Shown in pieces: positions 2,407 to 32,378 of a stretch of DNA of 33,034 bases. Source of the stretch: a virus; the IMG/VR virus record IMGVR_UViG_3300044712_002053, positions 1-33,034 of that record, one strand, 5' to 3'. A program made the translations under genes and the position numbers. Each line of letters begins with the position of its first letter. The first letter of the stretch is position 1. The notes beneath the pieces are model-generated. The model worked only from the letters and a program-made list of their open reading frames with translations, was not told where the DNA came from and searched no databases.

Positions 2407-3880
2407 CTACTTCAGCGCCGACCTGTCCCGCGATGTTGGCGGCGAACATCACCCGCGCGAGACTGTCGGTGATGGTCGCCGGTGAGGTTTTGGCGAGCTC
2501 GTCGAGTCGGTTGCGCACGTCTTCGAGGCTCGATGCGCCCTCGACGAATTGCTGAACGGCTTCAACCTGAGGACCGATTACCTTTTCCCATTTGTCACCG
2601 CCAATAAGGTTCTCGATGGCGTTATCAGCTGGGCCGACAAGGGGCTGATTCGGTTCTGCGAACGCCGCTTGCCCAGATGTCTGTTGCGTCGCATCGGGGC
2701 TCGCGCCTTGCGTCTTCGGGTCGATGAAGTCGTAGCCGTCGCCGTATGTCTCTTGAACGCGCTGCGCACTCGGTCTGTAGCCGATGGTGTTGAGTTGCAC
2801 GTCGCGCTCAGCGGCGGCCTTCAGGTCTTCCGATTCGGAGTAGTCGCGCCACACCTTCGGCGTCTTCGCGCCCGGATAATTCCACAGCGTGAGCCATGTT
2901 GCGGGGCCGCGCATGAAGCTTTCGCAGATGAGATCCGCGTAAGTCTTCGATACCATAACCTTCACATCGGCGTGCACATTCGCTTGCGACAATGAAGAAC
3001 CGTTGTCCGTGGTCATTGTCTGACAAAGCACGACTTTCGACACGCAGGCGTCGGCATAGTGGCAGAACTTCTCGTAGTCGTCGCCAGCGCGTGCGAGTGC
3101 TTGTAGGAGCTCGAGAGCTACAGAATTCGGAATTGCAATTGCGCCACCGAGTAAGATGCTCTTCGCAAGGTCGAGCGCCTTCTTGCGCTCGCCGTCGCCG
3201 GCGCCCGAGGGAAACTTTGCAACTGGCGTTGGGCTCGCGAACTTCTCGCCCCAGAGTGCCCAGAAGCGCATCATGTTGCGCTTGAACCACACGGGCCAGT
3301 AGCAGTAGTAACCGAGCCCGAGCGGATACGGGTCGTCATCGTCGTCGCTGTCGGCGCGGAACACCCAAAACTTGTTGGGTGGCATCACGGTGCCCTCGGG
3401 CAAGTCTTTTCGAACGAGACGCAGGGCACCGTTCACATCGAACTTGAAGCGACGAGCCTTGCGCACTTTGATGTCATTGAGAAGGATGTGCTTGCCGTCG
3501 GTTCCGTATAGGCACTCACTGACACCATACCCGCTCCAAACACCCTTGAGCATCTTGCGCGTGATGGCGTCCCAGCTAAGGGCCTCGAGCTGCGCTCGCA
3601 AGTCATCGGCCGCGAGCTTGTCAATCGGCGCGTCGCCTCCGGGCTCGACGTGGGTTTCGCGCGCCGTGATGTCCGTGCGCAGTTGTTTGAACGTCGAGTA
3701 ACACTGGTCGTCGGCGAGCACCTTGTCATAGATGACCAGGTCGCCGCCTTTCGCCTTCAGAATCTCGTCGTTCGCAACCTGAAGTTCTTGCGCGAAGTTG
3801 GCGCCGATGTCCTGAGACGTGACAACTGCAACCTCGTCGAACGTGGGCTTCTCAATGGGGGTCGTCTCGTTGGTTGCCAT
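2396..3880 (-). CDS. Portal protein, DUF935 family (Mu gp29-like)
   Basis: A 494-residue portal subunit, the normal size for the family. Portals form the dodecameric ring through which DNA enters and leaves the capsid. Family hallmarks are visible: the WFKRNMMRFWALWGEKFASP segment in the middle, then a QTMTTDNGSSLSQANVH segment and a C-terminal clip and crown with acidic and Gln-rich stretches. The ATG is preceded by AGGA and sits 7 nt after the upstream stop. It is followed directly by MuF (11-nt overlap), the usual Mu-family order, but on the leftward strand. Confidence 0.93.
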   Translation of the reverse strand: MATNETTPIEKPTFDEVAVVTSQDIGANFAQELQVANDEILKAKGGDLVIYDKVLADDQCYSTFKQLRTDITARETHVEPGGDAPIDKLAADDLRAQLEALSWDAITRKMLKGVWSGYGVSECLYGTDGKHILLNDIKVRKARRFKFDVNGALRLVRKDLPEGTVMPPNKFWVFRADSDDDDDPYPLGLGYYCYWPVWFKRNMMRFWALWGEKFASPTPVAKFPSGAGDGERKKALDLAKSILLGGAIAIPNSVALELLQALARAGDDYEKFCHYADACVSKVVLCQTMTTDNGSSLSQANVHADVKVMVSKTYADLICESFMRGPATWLTLWNYPGAKTPKVWRDYSESEDLKAAAERDVQLNTIGYRPSAQRVQETYGDGYDFIDPKTQGASPDATQQTSGQAAFAEPNQPLVGPADNAIENLIGGDKWEKVIGPQVEAVQQFVEGASSLEDVRNRLDELAKTSPATITDSLARVMFAANIAGQVGAEVDAD

Positions 3881-3887
3881 GGCGGTC

Positions 3888-4529
3888 CTATGCGACGTCG
3901 CCCCAGTCGAACTGCGCTGCCGCTTGTTCGACGATGGCGACCCGTGACTTCATTAGTTTCAGATACACGCTCGCGTCTGCGGTGTAGTAACCGGCGTCGT
4001 GAAGCGCTCGGTTGTATGTCTCGAGATTGCCGGTCATGAGAGCGTTGAGTACGCTCTGGTGCGACTCGAGGTAACTGAGCTGACTGCGCACGCCATCGAA
4101 CAAGTCATCGAACGCCCTGAAGCGCGACCACGGGTGCGGCGGCTTGATGCGCAGCGAGACCATGTTGATCGGGCCCGACTTCGTGGCGCGGACGTACCTG
4201 CTTTTCACGGTCAAGCAATTGGCGAATTCCTTGTATTGGAAAAGCAGCCGCTGATACTGCGCTTCGGTGACTTCTTCGCCGCACTCGAACATCGTGAAGT
4301 CGCCAGTCCAACCGTGCACACCGAGCACGAGGGCCTTGATGTTACCGAGGTTGTAGCAGTGGCACGCGCTGAACCTCTCGCCGACTTCGGCGTTGCAGTG
4401 CACCACCTTGAGCGTTACCGTTGCCCGTGTTGGGTTCACGCCCATCTCTTCCCACACGCGAAGGAATCCGTTGAATAGATCCGCGCACGTGACGGGCGTG
4501 AGCTTGTCGGGCAGCAGTCTTCCGGTCAT
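3888..4529 (-). CDS. Glucosaminidase-like endolysin (muramidase) candidate
   Basis: A 213-residue protein whose pattern matches the Glucosaminidase/FlgJ-type peptidoglycan hydrolase fold. HCNAEVG (44-50) stands where the family has its catalytic Glu (here Glu48), then NLGNIK (60-65), FRAFDDLFDGV (137-147) and the late family signature HDAGYYTAD (177-185) followed by VYLKLMKS. I infer endolysin activity that cuts the glycan backbone at lysis. No signal peptide is seen, so release would need a membrane-permeabilising partner; the membrane protein two genes upstream is the candidate. The ATG was chosen for its GAGGAAG ribosome site and 7-nt spacing from the previous stop; a longer open frame upstream only shadows the neighbour. 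Its position between terminase and portal is unusual. Confidence 0.72.
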   Translation of the reverse strand: MTGRLLPDKLTPVTCADLFNGFLRVWEEMGVNPTRATVTLKVVHCNAEVGERFSACHCYNLGNIKALVLGVHGWTGDFTMFECGEEVTEAQYQRLLFQYKEFANCLTVKSRYVRATKSGPINMVSLRIKPPHPWSRFRAFDDLFDGVRSQLSYLESHQSVLNALMTGNLETYNRALHDAGYYTADASVYLKLMKSRVAIVEQAAAQFDWGDVA

Positions 4530-4536
4530 GGCTTCC

Positions 4537-5616
4537 TCACTCGAACGACCGACGGACCTTGACCGTGGGCACGATTGGGCAGTCGCCATCGAAGTGCAGC
4601 TTTGGCAAGTCGCTCGTTGCAATCCACGCATACCCGCAACCCGTGCCGTCGATGGGCGTGTTCTTGTCAACCTCGGAGGCGATGCACCACCAAACAGGGC
4701 CCCATGATGTGCGCACCCACACGCCGCCACCTTCCACGGGAAGCTTGGCGTCAAAGTCGACGGCGAGCATCTCGTGTCCACCAACGTTTTGTGCCGCTGT
4801 GCCAATCTGAAGACGGCCGTTAGTTCCCGGCGTATACATTGTGGCTCGGAAGTCCACGCCAATCATGCAGGTCGAGCGCGTGAGCCCAGCCTTCAGGTCT
4901 GAAACGGTGTCCGCCGTCGTAAAGCCATCGAGCAGATCCATCTTGACGAGCCACGTCGCAACGCTCGACCCGTAGGTGCCGGTGTCGTTAGCGCCCGTCG
5001 TTGGGTTGAATGCTCGGGGGCACGACTTCGAGGTGCAAGGAACGGCGCAACCGTTATCGATGCACGTGCCGCCTTGATACGCTTCGAGCCCGTAGTTGAA
5101 CCCGTAGAACGCGAGGTCGTTGAACGGCGCCGATGCAATCATCGCGATGCCGGTGAAGCCCGCGCATGCGCCGTAACTCAACTGATTGATGTTGGGCCTG
5201 GGCGCATGTTGCCACGGCCAGCAATCGGTGGTCGCTTCAGGGGTGATCGGGGCACGGTTCGCGGCTCGAAGATGGCGCCCGCTCAGCTTGTGGAACTTCG
5301 CTTGACGTGCGTCCGAAGCCACGAGCGAGTTCGGCGTTGGGCGCTCGGGTTCAAGGCAAACCGATGTGCCTCCGGTCGCGGATGATCCACCCGTCGACGC
5401 GCTGCCGCCTTGGCTGTTCGTGCCACCCGTTGACAATGCGCCGCCGGTTGCGCCGGCGTCGAGCGAAGGCGAGCCGCCGATGCTTCCCGATCCGCCGGTG
5501 CTCCCGATTGGGATGCAGCCGGAGAAAAAACTCGCAACCGCACACGCTCCAAAGATAAACGCCAGCGCGAGGAACGTGGCGGCCGCGAACTTGCCGAAAG
5601 TCTTCAGCCAGTTCAT
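4537..5616 (-). CDS. Papain-like (C1-type) peptidase with lipoprotein-type N-terminus
   Basis: A 359-residue protein. A hydrophobic N-terminus (10-33) ends at FSGC (31-34), a plausible though non-canonical lipobox. Residues 36-85 are a Gly/Ser/Thr linker with GGS/TGG repeats, followed by a papain-like domain: Gln145 six residues before Cys151 in SYGACAGF (oxyanion Gln and nucleophile), GGHEMLAVDFD (His281), then VRTSWG (301-306), where the family normally has NSWG. The usual catalytic Asn is therefore Thr303, which may lower or alter activity. Several extra Cys (185-199) suggest disulphides, fitting export. It overlaps the upstream gene by ATGA and precedes the muramidase, so it may help degrade the envelope at lysis. 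It could also be an accessory gene taken from the host, given the host-style linker. Confidence 0.75.
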   Translation of the reverse strand: MNWLKTFGKFAAATFLALAFIFGACAVASFFSGCIPIGSTGGSGSIGGSPSLDAGATGGALSTGGTNSQGGSASTGGSSATGGTSVCLEPERPTPNSLVASDARQAKFHKLSGRHLRAANRAPITPEATTDCWPWQHAPRPNINQLSYGACAGFTGIAMIASAPFNDLAFYGFNYGLEAYQGGTCIDNGCAVPCTSKSCPRAFNPTTGANDTGTYGSSVATWLVKMDLLDGFTTADTVSDLKAGLTRSTCMIGVDFRATMYTPGTNGRLQIGTAAQNVGGHEMLAVDFDAKLPVEGGGVWVRTSWGPVWWCIASEVDKNTPIDGTGCGYAWIATSDLPKLHFDGDCPIVPTVKVRRSFE

Positions 5617-6146
5617 CGGACAACCCCCAGTTTACGTGCCGCGGCAACCGCTTCGATGCCGGGTGCCGTCACTTGGCGGCTTTCGGCGGGCGTTCGCATG
5701 AAGGGCGCAACGACGTCTGATAGTTCGCAGAGCGCTTCTGCAAAGTCGCCGATATCAACGCCTCGCATTACCGCCTCGGTGCGCACTTCCACGCGCCCCG
5801 CGAGGTCCTTGCTGCAGACCGAGCGCCATTCGTCGAACGCCGACTTCGCCCAGGGCATCGAGCTGCACCCGGTGAGCAAGAAGAGCATTCCAACCGTGCC
5901 GATGATGGCGGCGATTCGTGCGTCGGCGAGGGTCTTCAGGCTCGCGAATATCTTCCAGAAGTCGAGGCCCGTGGCGCGCAGTAGATTCAGCACGAACTGA
6001 AGCTTCGGGTGCGCGAGGCACCAGGTGTCAACGCGGGTCTTGCGTGCGAACAAGAGGGTGATGAAGCCCGCGAGGATGTACCAACAGAGGAACATCGCAA
6101 CGGCTGCCGCATTGCTGCGGATGAGGGTGATGAATTCGTTCGTCAT
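5613..6146 (-). CDS. Membrane protein, candidate holin/spanin-like lysis protein
   Basis: A 177-residue protein with one clear membrane segment at 12-34, a basic amphipathic stretch (35-77), and a second hydrophobic segment (78-93) ending in LTGC (91-94), a good lipobox, followed by a soluble tail. A lipobox this deep cannot act as a normal signal peptide unless translation restarts at Met87 (genomic 5888); the ribosome site there is poor. I do not recognise the family. Position (coupled by ATGA to both terL and the papain-like gene, two genes before the muramidase) suggests a lysis role, holin-like or outer-membrane-linking. This rests on topology and context only. Confidence 0.6.
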   Translation of the reverse strand: MTNEFITLIRSNAAAVAMFLCWYILAGFITLLFARKTRVDTWCLAHPKLQFVLNLLRATGLDFWKIFASLKTLADARIAAIIGTVGMLFLLTGCSSMPWAKSAFDEWRSVCSKDLAGRVEVRTEAVMRGVDIGDFAEALCELSDVVAPFMRTPAESRQVTAPGIEAVAAARKLGVVR

Positions 6147-8916: not shown

Positions 8917-8942
8917 GAAACAAAGACCCTGTTGCCGCGCGA

Positions 8943-8961
8943 CATCGTGAGTCGTACGATG
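8943..8961 (-). promoter_or_regulatory. CATCGT/ACGATG dyad upstream of the packaging operon
   Basis: CATCGT (8943-8948) and ACGATG (8956-8961) are exact inverted repeats separated by 7 bp, with a nested TCGTACGA palindrome (8952-8959). It lies between the 21-bp palindrome and the DUF2730 start, where the promoter core should be. No good -10 hexamer is seen, which is common for activator-dependent phage promoters. The same hexamers, in the opposite order, recur at 18479-18510. Confidence 0.45.
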
Positions 8962-8982
8962 CCAGTACAGGGCCTCGGCATA

Positions 8983-9003
8983 TGGGAGGAACAGTTCCTG
9001 CCA
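8983..9003. promoter_or_regulatory. 21-bp palindrome, copy C, after mor: candidate activator site
   Basis: Read leftward, arms TGGCAGGAA and TTCCTCCCA flank a CTG centre at 8993. Seventeen of 21 positions match the copy at 32358-32378. It lies 12 bp downstream of the mor stop and 67 bp upstream of the DUF2730 start. That is where Mu has its Mor-dependent middle promoter, relative to mor. Confidence 0.6.
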
Positions 9004-9014
9004 ATGCGCGACGG

Positions 9015-9431
9015 TCAGAAGAGGCTGATCTGCTTGTCGCCGTCGAGACCCGAGAGGATGATCTTGACGTATCGCGTTGTCACGCCCGCTTGTAGCGCAA
9101 TTGCCCGGTGCGACATCTTGCCGTCTTCAGCGAGCTCGAGGATTAGCCGCTTCTTCAAACGCTGATGCGAGCCACGGGGCAGTTCGATGCGGCGGCCACC
9201 GAGTGCTTTGCAGAGCTTGCGCCATGCATCCTCGCCGATGACTTTAGCCCACGGGTTGAAAAGGCCCGCGCGGGTCTTGAGTTTCGGGATGTAGTAACCG
9301 GACACTCCGCCGTATTGCTCGACGAGCTTGATGGTGAGCTCGGTCCCGATGATGTTCGCAATCTGCACCATCCCCTCGGGCCAATCTTTGGTGTCCGGAT
9401 CCATTGAGAGTACTTGGGGGGTGTTGTTCAT
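9015..9431 (-). CDS. mor: Mor/C-family transcriptional activator
   Basis: A 138-residue protein matching the Mor family: an N-terminal dimerisation region (WPEGMVQIANIIGTELTIKL, then a GGVSGYYIPK beta-strand segment) and a C-terminal HTH (about 105-130, MSHRAIALQAGVTTRYVKII). In Mu, Mor is made from the early operon and activates the middle promoter, and its paralogue C activates late promoters; both bind inverted repeats upstream of weak -10 boxes. Only one family member is visible here. It is the last early gene, coupled by ATGA to the gene before it, and followed within 12 bp by the palindrome proposed as its binding site. Confidence 0.9.
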   Translation of the reverse strand: MNNTPQVLSMDPDTKDWPEGMVQIANIIGTELTIKLVEQYGGVSGYYIPKLKTRAGLFNPWAKVIGEDAWRKLCKALGGRRIELPRGSHQRLKKRLILELAEDGKMSHRAIALQAGVTTRYVKIILSGLDGDKQISLF

Positions 9432-10537: not shown

Positions 10538-10770
10538 AGGAGTCGAGTCCCCATGCAAGTCGGGCAGCACACCTTCAGCGTGTCGGGGTTGTTCGTCTGG
10601 CTGCTGCACGTTGCCCAGTTCTTCGGGGCGAGCAGCCAGCTGAGGGGCTTGCCGTCAATGACGGTTGCGACGATGACGAAGATGCCGAGCCGCCCGCATG
10701 CAACGCAGGCGCTCGGGTGGTCTTGTTGGGATATCTCGTGGATGGGTTTGTGTTCAATCGCGGCATTCAC
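10534..10770 (-). CDS. Zinc-ribbon-like protein, 78 residues
   Basis: CVAC (22-25) and a later CCPTC (68-72) form a likely zinc ribbon around a hydrophobic core. No family recognised. GTG start; an ATG two codons upstream lies in another frame. It overlaps the previous gene by 17 nt and the sigma-like gene by ATGA. Confidence 0.62.
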   Translation of the reverse strand: MNAAIEHKPIHEISQQDHPSACVACGRLGIFVIVATVIDGKPLSWLLAPKNWATCSSQTNNPDTLKVCCPTCMGTRLL

Positions 10771-11275
10771 GGCGGTGCCTTTCGAGCGGGGTCATGGTGG
10801 CTTCACGGGCTTCGTTCACCTCGTCCACGAGCCACTGCTCGAAGTCGGCGGTGAAGAGTTTGCGGAATTGATGCAGCACCTCTTGAAGTACTCCGAGGCG
10901 CGCCAGGATGCGGCGGCGTTCGCGGGACCGTATACGCTCGGGAAGGTCCTTGACTGGAACGCCGCGCTTCAATGCGCGAGCGCGCTTGCGGTTCCCGGAG
11001 TTTCGGCTTTGGCAGAATGCGCAGCGCGTCTGCCCGGGAACCGCGGGGTCGCTGCAGTCGCGGCACTTGCCAGCGGCAACGGCCTCGTTGCGGCGCACGT
11101 TGTTCGCCTGAAGTCGTTCCTTGTATTGTCGGTACGCTGCACCAACGGCTTCGGATGCGGTCTCGGCGGGAACAAAAAAGATGTTCTTCTCGGGCGCCTC
11201 GAAGTGCGCACGGCTCACCTCGTCGCACTTGAGCAGCATGCCCGCTCGGTCGAGTTCGACGCGGAAGTACTTCAT
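10754..11275 (-). CDS. Early protein with central zinc ribbon, 173 residues
   Basis: The start at 11275 has one of the best ribosome sites in the operon (AAAGGAG, 9 nt upstream). Residues 1-65 are mixed, with a conserved-looking FEAPEKNIFFV stretch. Residues about 72-90 hold CRDC...CAFC, a four-Cys zinc ribbon seen in many small phage regulators. A strongly basic segment follows (RKRARALKRG, then RIRSRERRR), and an acidic helical tail ends the protein. The pattern suggests nucleic-acid binding. No specific family or function recognised. Confidence 0.7.
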   Translation of the reverse strand: MKYFRVELDRAGMLLKCDEVSRAHFEAPEKNIFFVPAETASEAVGAAYRQYKERLQANNVRRNEAVAAGKCRDCSDPAVPGQTRCAFCQSRNSGNRKRARALKRGVPVKDLPERIRSRERRRILARLGVLQEVLHQFRKLFTADFEQWLVDEVNEAREATMTPLERHRRECRD

Positions 11276-11546
11276 GGGCGAAGCTCCTTTGCGGCGGCGC
11301 GCACTTCGCGCTCGACTTGCTCGGGCACTTCGAAAAGTCCACGCTGGCCGCGGCACAGTATCGGGCGAGGTAGTTGCTTCGGGTTCTCGAGCAGGTAACC
11401 GAACGGCCCCGCGAACCACGGGCTATCAGGATCCGCCGTGGAAGCGAAACCGCCTCGGGCCAAGGCCATCGGCTATTGATGACATTGTTCCCGAGGTTGA
11501 ATATCGACCACGCCAACGGTTGCCGGTGCGAGAGCGCGAGCATCAC
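11272..11546 (-). pseudogene. Decayed ASCH-domain gene (internal deletion with frame change)
   Basis: A GTG at 11546 overlaps the previous stop (GTGA) and opens with LALSHRQPLAWSIF...NSRW, the N-terminal signature of ASCH proteins (ALSIRQPWAW...ENRxW). That frame then becomes nonsense. A second frame, from 11469, reads ARGGFASTADPDSPWFAGPFGYLLE...CRGQRGLFEVPE (both runs abbreviated), matching the ASCH C-terminal half. The middle of the domain, including the usual RGxxxIHA segment, is missing, and the frames differ by one base. I infer a deletion that was not a multiple of three. ASCH domains are RNA-binding-like folds. The 65-residue second half could still be translated but has no good ribosome site. 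Confidence 0.62.
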
Positions 11547-17564: not shown

Positions 17565-17632
17565 GAATTCTCACGTTTCGACAGTGCCCGATACTGCGTG
17601 CATTTAAATGCCCCGTCAAGGGAATTCTAACG
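17565..17632. promoter_or_regulatory. Operator direct repeats in the divergent control region
   Basis: GAATTCTCACG (17565-17575) and GAATTCTAACG (17622-17632) are 11-bp direct repeats with one mismatch, starting 57 bp apart, one just before each divergent gene. They flank the early promoter and its palindrome. They are likely binding sites for Ner or the repressor. Confidence 0.55.
17591..17619 (-). promoter_or_regulatory. Predicted early promoter with a 12-bp palindromic operator in its spacer
   Basis: On the leftward strand TTGACG (17614-17619) is a near-perfect -35. A 17-bp spacer leads to CAGTAT (17591-17596), a weak -10. The spacer contains the perfect palindrome GCATTTAAATGC (17600-17611). 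A protein bound there would block polymerase directly. The transcript would start around 17583-17578, shortly before ner. Confidence 0.6.
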
Positions 17633-17636
17633 CCCG

Positions 17637-18170
17637 ATGTCAAACAAATCTTCCCTTCGTGATCTGAGCGACGCAGAGCGCAACGAACTCGCGTCGAGGC
17701 TCAGGCAGATGGTGGAAGCAATCGGGACTCAGCCGGAGGCTGCAGATATTGCAGGAGTCTCACTGAGACAGCTCAAGCAATACCTTGCGGGAGACGCTGC
17801 GCCTTCGATGTTGGCGATGGGGGCACTTGCCGCTGCAACCGGATTCAGTATCGACTGGTTGGTCTCTGGCCTTGGAAACAAGATGCGTTCCGCTCGCTCG
17901 AACGTGGGTCAGAAAGACGCCGCTTTGGAAAGCGGTATCGGAATGCGCGAGACACTCGCCCAGATCCGAGAGGTGAAAGATCTGTTCAACAAGCTTGGGG
18001 TTCGCGTCGTCACCAACGAAGAAGAAGACGAGGTCATCAGCGGCATGCTCGATGTTCTCGACGATGCTGGCGTGCCCGAGGCTCATCACTTGGTGGTTCT
18101 GAGAGTTGTGGCAGCCGCCTTGAGACGGGTTCTCGAGGCGCGTGCTATTAATGACACTGCCACCCATTGA
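17637..18170 (+). CDS. Divergent Xre-type repressor candidate
   Basis: A 177-residue protein with an N-terminal HTH (about 30-75: TQPEAADIAGVSLRQLKQYL then MGALAAATGFSIDWLVSG) and a helical C-terminal half likely used for oligomerisation. There is no S24/LexA peptidase domain, so SOS self-cleavage is not expected. Divergent from ner across a 75-bp operator region, it takes the position of the Mu immunity repressor c. The ATG has only a weak site (AAGGG about 15 nt upstream). Confidence 0.82.
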   Translation: MSNKSSLRDLSDAERNELASRLRQMVEAIGTQPEAADIAGVSLRQLKQYLAGDAAPSMLAMGALAAATGFSIDWLVSGLGNKMRSARSNVGQKDAALESGIGMRETLAQIREVKDLFNKLGVRVVTNEEEDEVISGMLDVLDDAGVPEAHHLVVLRVVAAALRRVLEARAINDTATH

Positions 18171-18603
18171 CTGGACCGCGGTTCGGGAACCCGCAGAATG
18201 CCATTCAGACGGCGGAGCGACGCCGGGTGCGCTGTCACGGGCGTCGCCGGGGTCAAAAAGCGTTCCCCACCGGCTTCCCACCGACCTAGTTCGCGTCTCG
18301 GTTGTTCAGTGGGTGGCGCGATCTGACCCTTTGGGGTGTTCAGTGTCCAAAATCGGTGTCGGCCCATTATCCAGCCACGTGTCCGAGTCGTTTTGAGGGT
18401 CACAAGGGCGGCTCACGGCGAGCGCCCGATCTTAAATGGACACACACCAGCGCCTATGGACTCACTGTCACGAGCGTTACGATGTTCCATCGAGTGTTCC
18501 ATCGCATCGTGACGACTTCGCTCAAGTGAGCAGTGGTATTGGTGAGCAACGTTGCAGAGTGCACGCGGCACACGGGGTGCAACGCATCTCGCAGAGGTGA
18601 CAC
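18171..18603. promoter_or_regulatory. 433-bp gene-free region with TGTTC repeats
   Basis: No credible gene. It holds GGTTC-GG-GAACC just after the repressor stop (a short dyad without T-run), TGTTCAGTG twice (18303-18311 and 18337-18345, 34 bp apart), and TGTTCCATCG twice (18483-18492 and 18495-18504, one helical turn plus 2 bp apart). The second pair is enclosed by ACGATG (18479-18484) and CATCGT (18505-18510). Repeats on one face of the helix suggest regulator binding upstream of the lipoprotein gene. The 21-bp palindrome of the late regulon is absent. Confidence 0.5.
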
Positions 18604-19074
18604 ATGTCTAAGTTCTTCATGTTCGTGTTGGTTGCTCTTTCATTGGTTGGCTGCGCGGGCGTCAGTGAGCAGTCGGTTGTCCAGAGCGACGCGGCGCCCA
18701 CTGCGCCAGTCGTAACGGAAGACGCGGGCTCGCATCCGGTTGCACGCACGTGGTCGTTGCTCTCGCGCAAGTGCACCGCTGATGCAATCCCGTCAACCAA
18801 TTGCACCGAGTGGACGTCCGAAGCCATTCCTGACGTCAACTACGTTACGAACCTCGACGCGACGTTCGGTGCGTGGCAAGCGTGGATGCACGGCATGACG
18901 CACGACGGCGGCCAAGACCAGGTGACACTCTGGTTCCAGCGCTCGGGCGACGCCGATTACGTCTGGGTAACTGCGACGTGTGCTCGCGAGGACTCCGAGC
19001 AAACGAACCTCCTTTTCGACACGGCCGCTGGCGTTTACTTCGAGGTTTCGGTGCTATGCTCGGTGAGCCAATGA
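18604..19074 (+). CDS. Phage-encoded lipoprotein, 156 residues
   Basis: A classical lipoprotein signal: basic N-terminus, hydrophobic core and lipobox LVGC (14-17). A Ser/Thr/Ala/Pro spacer (about 18-45) leads to a compact domain with four Cys (KCTADAIPSTNCTEW; TCARED; VLCSVS) and several Trp, fitting a disulphide-bonded periplasmic domain. No family recognised. A good ribosome site (AGAGGTGA) precedes the ATG. Located between the repressor and the first late gene, with its own long upstream region, it is a candidate lysogenic-conversion or superinfection-exclusion gene. That role is inferred from context. Confidence 0.72.
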   Translation: MSKFFMFVLVALSLVGCAGVSEQSVVQSDAAPTAPVVTEDAGSHPVARTWSLLSRKCTADAIPSTNCTEWTSEAIPDVNYVTNLDATFGAWQAWMHGMTHDGGQDQVTLWFQRSGDADYVWVTATCAREDSEQTNLLFDTAAGVYFEVSVLCSVSQ

Positions 19075-19538
19075 GAATCCTGCGCCAAACCCCCGAGGTC
19101 GTTGAGTTGGTTCACGAAGGCTCGTGTTTCAGCGTCACTGCTGCGCAATGGGAACGAATGAAGGCGCTCGCTGGGCGTTCTACGCTGTCGATGTTGGATA
19201 TTGTGAAGCAGCTGCGGCTCGGGAATATTGGAATTCCCGAGCTTGGGATTGAGCTTGAGCTCACTAGGCTCGAGAACTGCTTCCCGCCACCGGAGAAGAT
19301 GCCACCGTTTCCCGAGGTGATGGGTCCCCAATCGTGCGAAGTATGTCGCTACTCGGGATTCGACCGGATCTCGTTCTACCGTAACGTCATCGTTCGCGAC
19401 CGACCGGTCCGAGTTTTGGTGGAGGGTTACTTTAGTCAGTGTACCCGTTGTCGACAGTTGTACGAGTATAGGGACACGGCTTGGGTCGAGCTTAGTCAGC
19501 TCGAAGTGGACAACCTGAAGCTGACATGTGAGACGTGA
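19071..19538 (+). CDS. Zinc-ribbon accessory protein, 155 residues
   Basis: The start overlaps the lipoprotein stop by ATGA, so the two are one unit. The N-terminal half is helical with Leu-rich stretches (MLDIVKQLRLGNIGIPELGI). The C-terminal third has CEVC (89-92) and CTRC (124-127) around a beta-rich segment, giving a four-Cys zinc ribbon. No family recognised. It contains a 10-bp perfect inverted repeat in its coding sequence (19217-19242). Confidence 0.65.
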   Translation: MRILRQTPEVVELVHEGSCFSVTAAQWERMKALAGRSTLSMLDIVKQLRLGNIGIPELGIELELTRLENCFPPPEKMPPFPEVMGPQSCEVCRYSGFDRISFYRNVIVRDRPVRVLVEGYFSQCTRCRQLYEYRDTAWVELSQLEVDNLKLTCET

Positions 19539-19597
19539 TCCTTGCTTTATCCTGGTCGGTCGTGGCAACGTGCGCGCATACGTGTGGGGTGAGTCGT

Positions 19598-19618
19598 TGG
19601 CGGGAACACTTCCCGCCA
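19598..19618. promoter_or_regulatory. 21-bp palindrome, copy A, before the protease gene
   Basis: Arms TGGCGGGAA and TTCCCGCCA with a CAC centre. It is the exact reverse complement of the copy at 32358-32378 and close to the one at 8983-9003. No T-run follows on either strand, so it is unlikely to be a terminator. It lies 38 bp before the protease ATG, where Mu has its late promoter for gene I. The gap 19539-19655 holds nothing else clear. Confidence 0.6.
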
Positions 19619-19655
19619 GGTGATTCGGTGTGCAGCTGGCAAGGTGGCGTCACCG

Positions 19656-20852
19656 ATGAACGCCATCGAGATATTCAAGCCCGGTCGCCACACCTCAATG
19701 AAAGGGGAATCCCTCGAGTTTTCTGCGGCCGATTGTGCGGCGTCTGCGAAGGCGTACGATCCTGCGAAGCATGAAGCCCCGATTGTCATCGGACATCCGA
19801 GCGCCGACGCTCCTGCGTACGGTTGGGTCAAGAGCCTCGCCTTTGCTGAAGGTTCAATGCGAGCCGAGCCCGACCAAATCGATGCGGCGTTTGCCGAAGC
19901 GGTTGGCGCGGGGCGCTACAAGAAGGTTTCGGCATCGTTTTACACTCCGAAGTCAGCGGCCAATCCGGTGCCGGGTGTGTACTACCTGCGTCACGTGGGG
20001 TTCCTTGGTGCGCAACCGCCCTCAGTGAAGGGTCTGCGCCAAGTGGAATTCGCGGGTGGCGACGAGGATGCGGTCACCGTTGAATTCGGTGACTTCAACG
20101 ACATGACGGTCGCGTCGCTGTTTCGCAGCTTGCGCGATTGGGTGATTGGCAAATTCGGAACGGAAGAGGCGGACAAGGCCTTGCCGCCCTGGAATGTCAA
20201 TTCCGCTCAAGAGACGGCGGCGCAGATTGACGCCCCTCTCGCAACAGATTCGAGTTACTCGGAAGGGACCGAGGAGACAGTAGCGACGGCGACAAGTGGG
20301 GCTTCGCCGGAGGTTGCACCGAATCTCCAATCACCGGTGCAACCTTCGGCTGAAGTTTCGCCACCCACGCCGGAGCCTGCGCCCGCAAGCTCCGAGCCTA
20401 CGGAACCACCAGATCCGAAGGCAGAGGAACTCAAGCGCAAGGAAGCCGCGCTCGCCGAGCGTGAGCGCGTGCTGAACGAGCGCGAGAACAAGGCGAAGCT
20501 CGACGGGCACGCGGCGTTCCTCGAAGGACTCGTGCGCGAGGGTCGTCCGCTCCCGTGCGACCAGAGTGTTATCGTGAACTTCATGCGCCTGCTCGACGGC
20601 GAACAGGCTGATACTGTGAGCTTCGGCGAGGGCGAGACGCGAACGCCTCTCGAGCTGTTCAAGTCCGAGCTGCTCGCGAAGTTCCCGAAGACAGTTGACT
20701 TCACCGAGCGCAGCAATGGCGGCGGCTCGGATGATGAAGATGATCCCGAGGTCATCGCAACGAAAGCCGTGGCGTTCCAAGAGGAACAGCGCAAGGCGGG
20801 CATCGTTGTCACAACCTCGGATGCAGTTACCCACGTTAGAGGAGTGAAGTAG
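19656..20852 (+). CDS. I: Capsid maturation protease with C-terminal scaffold (Mu gpI-like)
   Basis: A 398-residue protein. Residues 1-140 are the phage protease domain, with His47 in PIVIGHPSADAPAYGWVK and Ser92/Ser94 in YKKVSASFYTP, then LRHVGFLGAQPPSVKGL. A Pro/Ser/Thr/Glu linker (about 190-255) leads to a charged coiled coil (about 255-290, KRKEAALAERERVLNERENK) and a C-terminal tail. The layout is that of proteases that also scaffold the prohead and then cleave themselves. ATG 19656 was chosen because AAGGTGG precedes it; a GTG 36 bp upstream is open too but overlaps the control region. Confidence 0.87.
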   Translation: MNAIEIFKPGRHTSMKGESLEFSAADCAASAKAYDPAKHEAPIVIGHPSADAPAYGWVKSLAFAEGSMRAEPDQIDAAFAEAVGAGRYKKVSASFYTPKSAANPVPGVYYLRHVGFLGAQPPSVKGLRQVEFAGGDEDAVTVEFGDFNDMTVASLFRSLRDWVIGKFGTEEADKALPPWNVNSAQETAAQIDAPLATDSSYSEGTEETVATATSGASPEVAPNLQSPVQPSAEVSPPTPEPAPASSEPTEPPDPKAEELKRKEAALAERERVLNERENKAKLDGHAAFLEGLVREGRPLPCDQSVIVNFMRLLDGEQADTVSFGEGETRTPLELFKSELLAKFPKTVDFTERSNGGGSDDEDDPEVIATKAVAFQEEQRKAGIVVTTSDAVTHVRGVK

Positions 20853-32357: not shown

Positions 32358-32378
32358 TGGCGGGAAGTGTTCCCGCCA
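32358..32378. promoter_or_regulatory. 21-bp palindrome, copy B, before baseplate W
   Basis: Arms TGGCGGGAA and TTCCCGCCA with a GTG centre at 32368. Downstream, TATAGT (32400-32405) is a five-of-six -10 box, giving a predicted start near 32411-32412. The palindrome is then centred about 43-44 bp upstream, close to where Mor binds at the Mu middle promoter. Confidence 0.6.

Follow-up and report, generated by a model that had tools for sequence, protein, structure and literature searches.

In Mu-like transposable phages related to the one analysed here, the content of a slot beside the repressor gene varies, and the DNA on both sides of it is conserved. In this phage the slot holds a gene for a predicted lipoprotein and a coupled gene for a protein with two CxxC pairs. 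The best overall explanation, which we favour with moderate confidence, is that the pair is an accessory (moron-type) envelope cassette occupying that slot. That it is an accessory envelope cassette is, taken by itself, highly probable. Analogy with other phages makes its expression in lysogeny rather likely, and points tentatively to exclusion as its most likely function, with a change in the host surface as the alternative. The pair is ordinary in kind, and the recurring slot is the interesting part.

The window, by which we mean the whole stretch of DNA analysed, is an incomplete IMG/VR contig of 33,034 bases from a temperate, Mu-like transposable phage with a divergent layout (Table 1). 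Its minus strand encodes Ner, MuA, a MuB-like ATPase and Mor, then terminase, portal and MuF; its plus strand carries the repressor, the lipoprotein/CxxC pair, gene I, a decorator, the capsid and tail genes, with genes lacking a family match named from a reading of their translations. MuA matched 170 public phage records, all at less than 60% identity and the top-ranked at 44%. In IMG/VR one record, L003, has a MuA that is 72% identical; L003 is the closest relative found. A MuA profile had no match in genome contigs. The gene I product is 60% identical to a protein of L003 and 35% to one of L025. The best 80 of its 570 confirmed relatives were kept, and three of these 80 (L055, L084 and L122) have a recognised repressor.

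Two other minus-strand genes drew attention. One, at 4537-5616 between a gene for a membrane protein (5613-6146) and the portal gene, encodes a putative peptidase (phrog_16701, E = 1.7e-6). The protein has an extended hydrophobic stretch at its N-terminus and a linker rich in Gly and Ser, and this region is perhaps a lysis module. The other, at 10754-11278 in the early region, encodes a protein with two CxxC pairs that by eye resembles the slot protein of L003 and weakly matches a DksA-like PHROG (E = 0.0045).

Table 1 Features of the window discussed in the text
Feature	Coordinates	Strand	Remarks
21-bp palindrome	8983-9003		Three mismatches; before the minus-strand late operon
Mor-family activator	9015-9431	-	PF08765, 26.7 bits (cut-off 24.9); presumed middle/late regulator
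Candidate repressor operators	17598-17635		Half-sites at 17602 and 17624
Repressor (HTH_3)	17637-18170	+	Pfam HTH_3, 28.2 bits (cut-off 23); PHROG repressor families; homologues in L003 and L055
Non-coding gap	18171-18603		433 bp; bounded by the repressor stop (18170) and the lipoprotein start
Lipoprotein, 156 aa	18604-19074	+	Lipobox LVGC at residues 14-17, linker, beta-rich domain at 46-156
CxxC protein, 155 aa	19071-19538	+	C89xxC92...C124xxC127; start overlaps the lipoprotein stop (ATGA)
21-bp palindrome	19598-19618		Exact; in the late leader (19539-19655) before gene I
Mu gene I-like protease/scaffold	19656-20852	+	First late head gene
21-bp palindrome	32358-32378		Exact; before baseplate genes

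The slot in other Mu-like phages

Between the repressor and gene I, L003 has a homologue of the window lipoprotein in the same position (36% identity, 2e-24), and L055 has a gene for an unrelated exported protein (966-1607). In L084 the gene (4475-4918) lies on the opposite strand and encodes a lipoprotein, again unrelated, and L122 is empty. Genes that vary or are absent between the same two neighbours are as expected of a moron, and by description they resemble the regions of genomic plasticity of Pseudomonas Mu-like phages, where small variable genes lie at fixed places (PMC4378225). A repeat of about 75 bp stands on either side of the L003 cassette, one copy before the lipoprotein gene and one before the gene I region (score 32.5, compared with a maximum of 17.5 in 200 shuffles).

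To place these loci in a wider setting, we surveyed 26 loci, of which 18 had a repressor; L008 and L017 end at the repressor, and L005, L012 and L053 could not be read clearly. L052 came in through its annotation, L055, L084, L122, the window, Fc02 and B3 were also included, and near-identical pairs (L014/L018 and L015/L016) were merged. A predicted exported protein lies beside the repressor in 12 of the 18 readable, deduplicated genomes: the window, L003, L004, L014/L018, L020, L021, L050, L051, L052, L055, L084 (counted as a hit although its slot gene faces the other way) and Fc02. The misses were L015/L016, L022, L023 and L024, whose proteins are not predicted to be exported, the empty L122, and B3, whose first gene encodes a membrane protein lacking an N-terminal signal. 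All hits were put through the export rule except Fc02 e4, which was judged by eye and PHROG match, and L014, which is 89% identical to L018. Under the same N-terminal rule, 12 of 95 background genes were called exported (7 of 42 in the window and 5 of 53 in the Microcystis phage, counts that include the slot genes of both). The binomial probability of the slot enrichment is 1.5e-7, or 1.6e-6 with the three unclear genomes taken as misses, and 3e-6 and 3e-5 with the window rate of 7/42 as background; as the relatives are not independent and the slot ORFs and their starts were chosen by eye, these values are a guide only.

The slot proteins are diverse. BLASTP at 1e-3 divides those of the 12 hits into nine groups, with the B3 membrane protein forming a tenth; L004, L020 and L021 share one family, and L015/L016 and L022 share another. 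The proteins of L004, L020 and L021, which belong to phrog_5882 (unknown function), comprise one that looks membrane-anchored and two predicted lipoproteins. In L051 (Thiobacimonas phage vB_ThpS-P1, KT381864), the signal-peptide ORF right after the repressor (2429-3034, minus strand) is unannotated. A small gene overlaps the exported gene by four bases in the window, L003, L018 and L052. Of the papers listed for such phages on the subjects of morons, lipoproteins and exclusion, none describes a general slot in its title or displayed abstract, which does not prove that the literature lacks one.

Expression in lysogeny is suggested by Fc02, a B3-like transposable phage of Pseudomonas. RNA-seq of its lysogen revealed forward transcription over about 1,900 nt, taking in e4, the gene after the repressor, which was called accessory with no function assigned; e4 is the only slot gene among the compared phages with published lysogen transcription, and it is not called a lipoprotein in the sections of that report on which we draw (PMC9936078). 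The gene whose position identifies it, in our reading, as e4 has a translation beginning MDFKVLLGAVMLVSLSVAGC, with a match to phrog_10370 'lipoprotein'. Like the window gene, it is a lipoprotein gene right after the repressor, with divergent early genes, and is accessory among relatives. However, its product has no BLASTP similarity to the window lipoprotein at 1e-3, it has no coupled CxxC gene annotated, and the genes that follow it on the forward arm are for lysis and packaging, functions that the window encodes on its other arm. It also lies only 16 nt from the repressor, compared with 433 bp in the window. Distances are similarly wide in L003 (398 bp) and L055 (277 bp), and run from 0 to 39 nt in L004, L014, L018, L020, L021, L050, L051, L052 and Fc02. 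Thus, co-transcription with the repressor, as seen in Fc02, may not apply to the three phages with a wide gap.

Several phage lipoproteins offer a precedent for exclusion. Ltp of Streptococcus phage TP-J34 is a tested superinfection-exclusion lipoprotein that is transcribed in the prophage (PMC3952083); like the window candidate it is a lipoprotein in the lysogeny module, but its host is Gram-positive and its gene order is different. Cor and mEpimmI Lpp, both from coliphages, are likewise phage-encoded lipoproteins. Exclusion by Lpp has been tested, and the Lpp genes lie in the structural cluster, unlike the window gene beside the repressor (PMC11893012). Cor was the best PHROG hint for the window lipoprotein (E = 0.0075), but the match covers only residues 1-24, the signal peptide, and the profile of the Cor-type exclusion lipoproteins (phrog_1119) has no match over the mature protein. 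The preliminary description had read the pair as a candidate lysogenic-conversion cassette. This reading gains partial, indirect support from the recurrence of predicted exported proteins beside the repressor and from the transcription of e4 in the Fc02 lysogen.

Conversion for the benefit of the host, acting on a surface property, stress or predation rather than on phage exclusion, is a less likely reading that deserves weight. The slot proteins belong to unrelated families, as would be expected if envelope location were their sole common factor, and the predicted fold of the window lipoprotein gives no hint of receptor mimicry. However, the phage lipoproteins tested in the two reports cited above act in exclusion (PMC3952083, PMC11893012), which argues for the exclusion reading.

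Control sequences around the pair

The placement of the pair outside the late regulon, proposed from its lack of the 21-bp palindrome, held up. No copy of this palindrome is expected by chance in the window, and those found precede three operons (described as late from their gene content) at 38 and 35 bp from the start codon on the plus strand and 67 bp on the minus strand. None was found in the gap or before 18604, even with up to three mismatches. In L003 and L055 the late dyad is CCCGTAAGGSTTCGGG, which occupies the same place in the leader alignment as the window palindrome, and no late dyad lies upstream of the slot genes of the window, L003 (both searched with up to three mismatches) or L055 (exact search only). 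The gene I leader alignments of L003 with L055 and of the window with L055 were equalled in 0 of 1,000 shuffles, and that of the window with L003 in 80 of 1,000, which is not significant. A three-mismatch copy of the CCCGTAAGGSTTCGGG dyad lies further along the L003 record, whereas the window palindrome has one three-mismatch match in L003, far from the slot and at chance level. Two viral contigs, L138 and L139, contain the exact 21-bp palindrome pattern, which may be chance.

The pattern RTTYWAAYGCSS occurs exactly at only two places in the 33 kb, 17602 and 17624 in the repressor/Ner region; allowing up to one mismatch raises the count for the window to seven, all of them outside the gap. The motif is also found upstream of the L003 and L055 repressors, and we regard these sites as candidate repressor operators. 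L055 has a further exact copy just after the repressor stop (698), and its slot gene may be repressor-controlled. The window pair appears to lie outside both lytic switches, an arrangement that not every relative shows. In L055 an operator-like palindrome upstream of the repressor (98-113) is repeated just past the repressor stop (694-709), and L084 has one past its repressor stop (4396-4414) that resembles by eye one before the L084 repressor.

These observations bear on whether the pair belongs instead to the lytic phase, as middle or late genes made on induction that would, for example, block secondary adsorption or adjust lysis. We consider this unlikely. The pair does lie directly upstream of the late operon and in line with it, the L003 repeat precedes both the lipoprotein gene and the region before gene I, and an operator-like copy precedes the L055 slot gene. 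However, the slot genes of the window, L003 and L055 have no late dyad upstream, gene I has a conserved leader of its own, and the L084 lipoprotein gene runs against the late genes.

Two other candidate sites were discarded. A sigma-54-like reading of the L003 repeat (TGGCAC-N5-TYGCA, exact twice in L003) was dropped: the two copies are one duplicated segment, and two-mismatch matches in the window are near chance (31, compared with 23.8 expected). The dyad GCATCGT-N7-ACGATG, conserved between mor and the minus-strand late genes and also searched for in L003, was rejected as a Mor site for the slot, the gap holding no copy with up to three mismatches. In both the window (8941-8962, minus strand) and L003 (17276-17297), the interval from the Mor gene to the minus-strand late genes contains a 22-bp dyad, GCATCGTACGACTC(A/G)CGATGTC; it is near-identical in the two phages, whereas the flanking proteins are far more diverged, and by eye it overlaps the start of a tiny leader ORF.

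The gap itself had been described as a 433-bp control region with four TGTTC repeats. The gap exists, and so do the repeats (plus strand, 18303, 18337, 18483 and 18495, with a fifth at 18620 inside the lipoprotein gene). TGTTC reaches four copies in only 4 of 1,000 dinucleotide shuffles of the gap, but some 5-mer does so in 936 of 1,000; once the choice of word is counted the repeats are at chance level, and we rejected them as regulatory evidence. In addition, the first part of the gap (18208-18364) aligns with L055, where the slot gene is unrelated, so the gap is not specific to the pair. Local alignments of this post-repressor block were reached in 0 of 1,000 shuffles for the window and L055, 6 for the window and L003, and 15 for L003 and L055. 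Consensus scans found no plus-strand terminator and no promoter-like site of the sigma-70 type, which may not be that of the host, and in predicted RNA structure neither the gap nor the leader surpassed shuffled sequences. An exception to the folding result is a hairpin before the L003 lipoprotein gene (L003 8670-8790, minus strand; z = -2.97); its 3' arm covers the ribosome-binding region of that gene, and a transcript starting inside the hairpin would escape sequestration.

Alternatively, the gap could be a backbone element and not serve to control the pair. One example would be a strong gyrase site like that of Mu, which is found centrally in the Mu genome, close to genes G and I (PMC10052514). 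The gap sits roughly at mid-contig, separated from the downstream gene I by the pair alone, and the conservation of its first part in L055 is in keeping with such an element. We nevertheless find this doubtful: the contig is incomplete, making its centre approximate, and the repressor-to-slot distance is less than 40 nt in nine other phages. A gyrase site and an accessory cassette can be compatible.

The lipoprotein and its CxxC partner

Both ORFs were found where the preliminary description had placed them, between the repressor and the late genes, overlapping at ATGA and preceded by the 433-bp gap. The lipoprotein begins MSKFFMFVLVALSLVGC-AG, its ATG preceded by the Shine-Dalgarno-like GAGGTGA, and MSKFFMFVLVALSLVGC carries the N-terminal charge, hydrophobic core and cysteine-containing lipobox of bacterial lipoproteins (rule-based signal score, 2.95). 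From these features we infer an exported, lipid-anchored protein. The ORF looks like a real gene because its L003 homologue occupies the same position, and the two proteins have four mature cysteines in common. Its GC3 (0.74) does not stand out in this phage (mean 0.718, s.d. 0.058), and composition therefore shows no sign of recent transfer.

In the predicted structure, the lipoprotein consists mostly of strands, with a pLDDT of about 77 to 92 per ten-residue block from residue 51. Foldseek found no match to it in PDB or BFVD at E <= 0.001, and in a second structural comparison the best Z was 6.4 (7s9y, r.m.s.d. 3.5, 96 residues aligned; secretins tied), which for this model is within the range of unrelated folds. 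Weak profile matches were not accepted: phrog_8801 (0.066), Rz-like spanins (0.18 and 0.22), two PHROG families of unknown function (0.16 and 0.22) and the PG1828 lipoprotein family (0.037). All weak matches begin in the first residues of the protein and stop by residue 64. A spanin reading was dropped, as the modelled beta-rich domain has no long helices. A PDB sequence search with the lipoprotein profile returned 8h2i (E = 9e-19 over the whole chain, with no single stretch passing), which we treated as a multi-stretch artefact, and 7cuj (0.27), which was set aside.

Homologues beyond L003 were scarce. A two-sequence lipoprotein profile recovered only L003 again from viral contigs and nothing from genome contigs, single-sequence scans of viral contigs with each protein of the pair gave no match, and a phage collection yielded no match for query proteins P0002 (the CxxC protein), P0001 and P0004. 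Scans of viral, phage, plasmid and genome contigs used a few short peptide patterns, and absence from them is weak evidence.

The CxxC protein had been called a zinc-ribbon protein. Its two CxxC pairs are consistent with that label, but no family match passes the cut-off (none in PHROGs or NCBIfam, and in Pfam only DUF3258 at E = 0.2) and the structural model is of low confidence (pLDDT 61.7). Foldseek found no match to it in PDB at E <= 0.001, and the second comparison gave a best Z of 4.2 (6irx, r.m.s.d. 2.8, 53 residues aligned), in the range of unrelated folds. Plasmids gave one match at E = 0.9, and the searched sets held no convincing homologue. The L003 lipoprotein gene is likewise followed by a coupled gene (GTGA overlap); its product, 79 residues long and with three CxxC pairs, shows no alignment with the window CxxC protein. 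Thus, a search for the pair in other phages, as had been suggested, recovered the lipoprotein in L003 with a different partner; the two phages agree in position, in coupling and in having a metal-type protein, but not in the family of the partner. No CxxC partner gene was seen in L055, L084 or Fc02, and as judged by these comparisons the CxxC partner is not conserved. That one or both ORFs are simply not expressed is very improbable: the second has no convincing homologue in the sets searched, but the L003 lipoprotein homologue, the good start context and the ordinary codon-position GC all argue against this.

A possible standing position for envelope proteins

In the accessory-cassette explanation, the slot beside the repressor would often be filled with exported proteins in Mu-like phages, and the pair would be one such filling. 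The pair would be transcribed in the lysogen, with the lipoprotein exported and lipid-anchored so that its beta-rich domain faces the periplasm or the cell surface. There it may protect the lysogen by preventing other phages from adsorbing or their DNA from entering, or may alter the surface in some other way. The CxxC protein would be made alongside in the cytoplasm and is probably exchangeable.

A bolder and, as a joint claim, improbable reading is that a standing slot past the repressor serves fast-changing envelope proteins as a general exclusion locus. Such a slot would often include a coupled small cytoplasmic protein, would have conserved flanking DNA and would lie outside both lytic switches; the window pair would then work as two parts, the cytoplasmic protein controlling or sensing the one in the envelope. 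If the slot is general, exclusion factors as yet unrecognised in Mu-like phages could readily be sought there, and a prediction open to experiment would follow for Fc02 e4, for which both lysogen and phage are in hand. Because the proteins of the pair match no family in the searched libraries, any activity found for them would be new.
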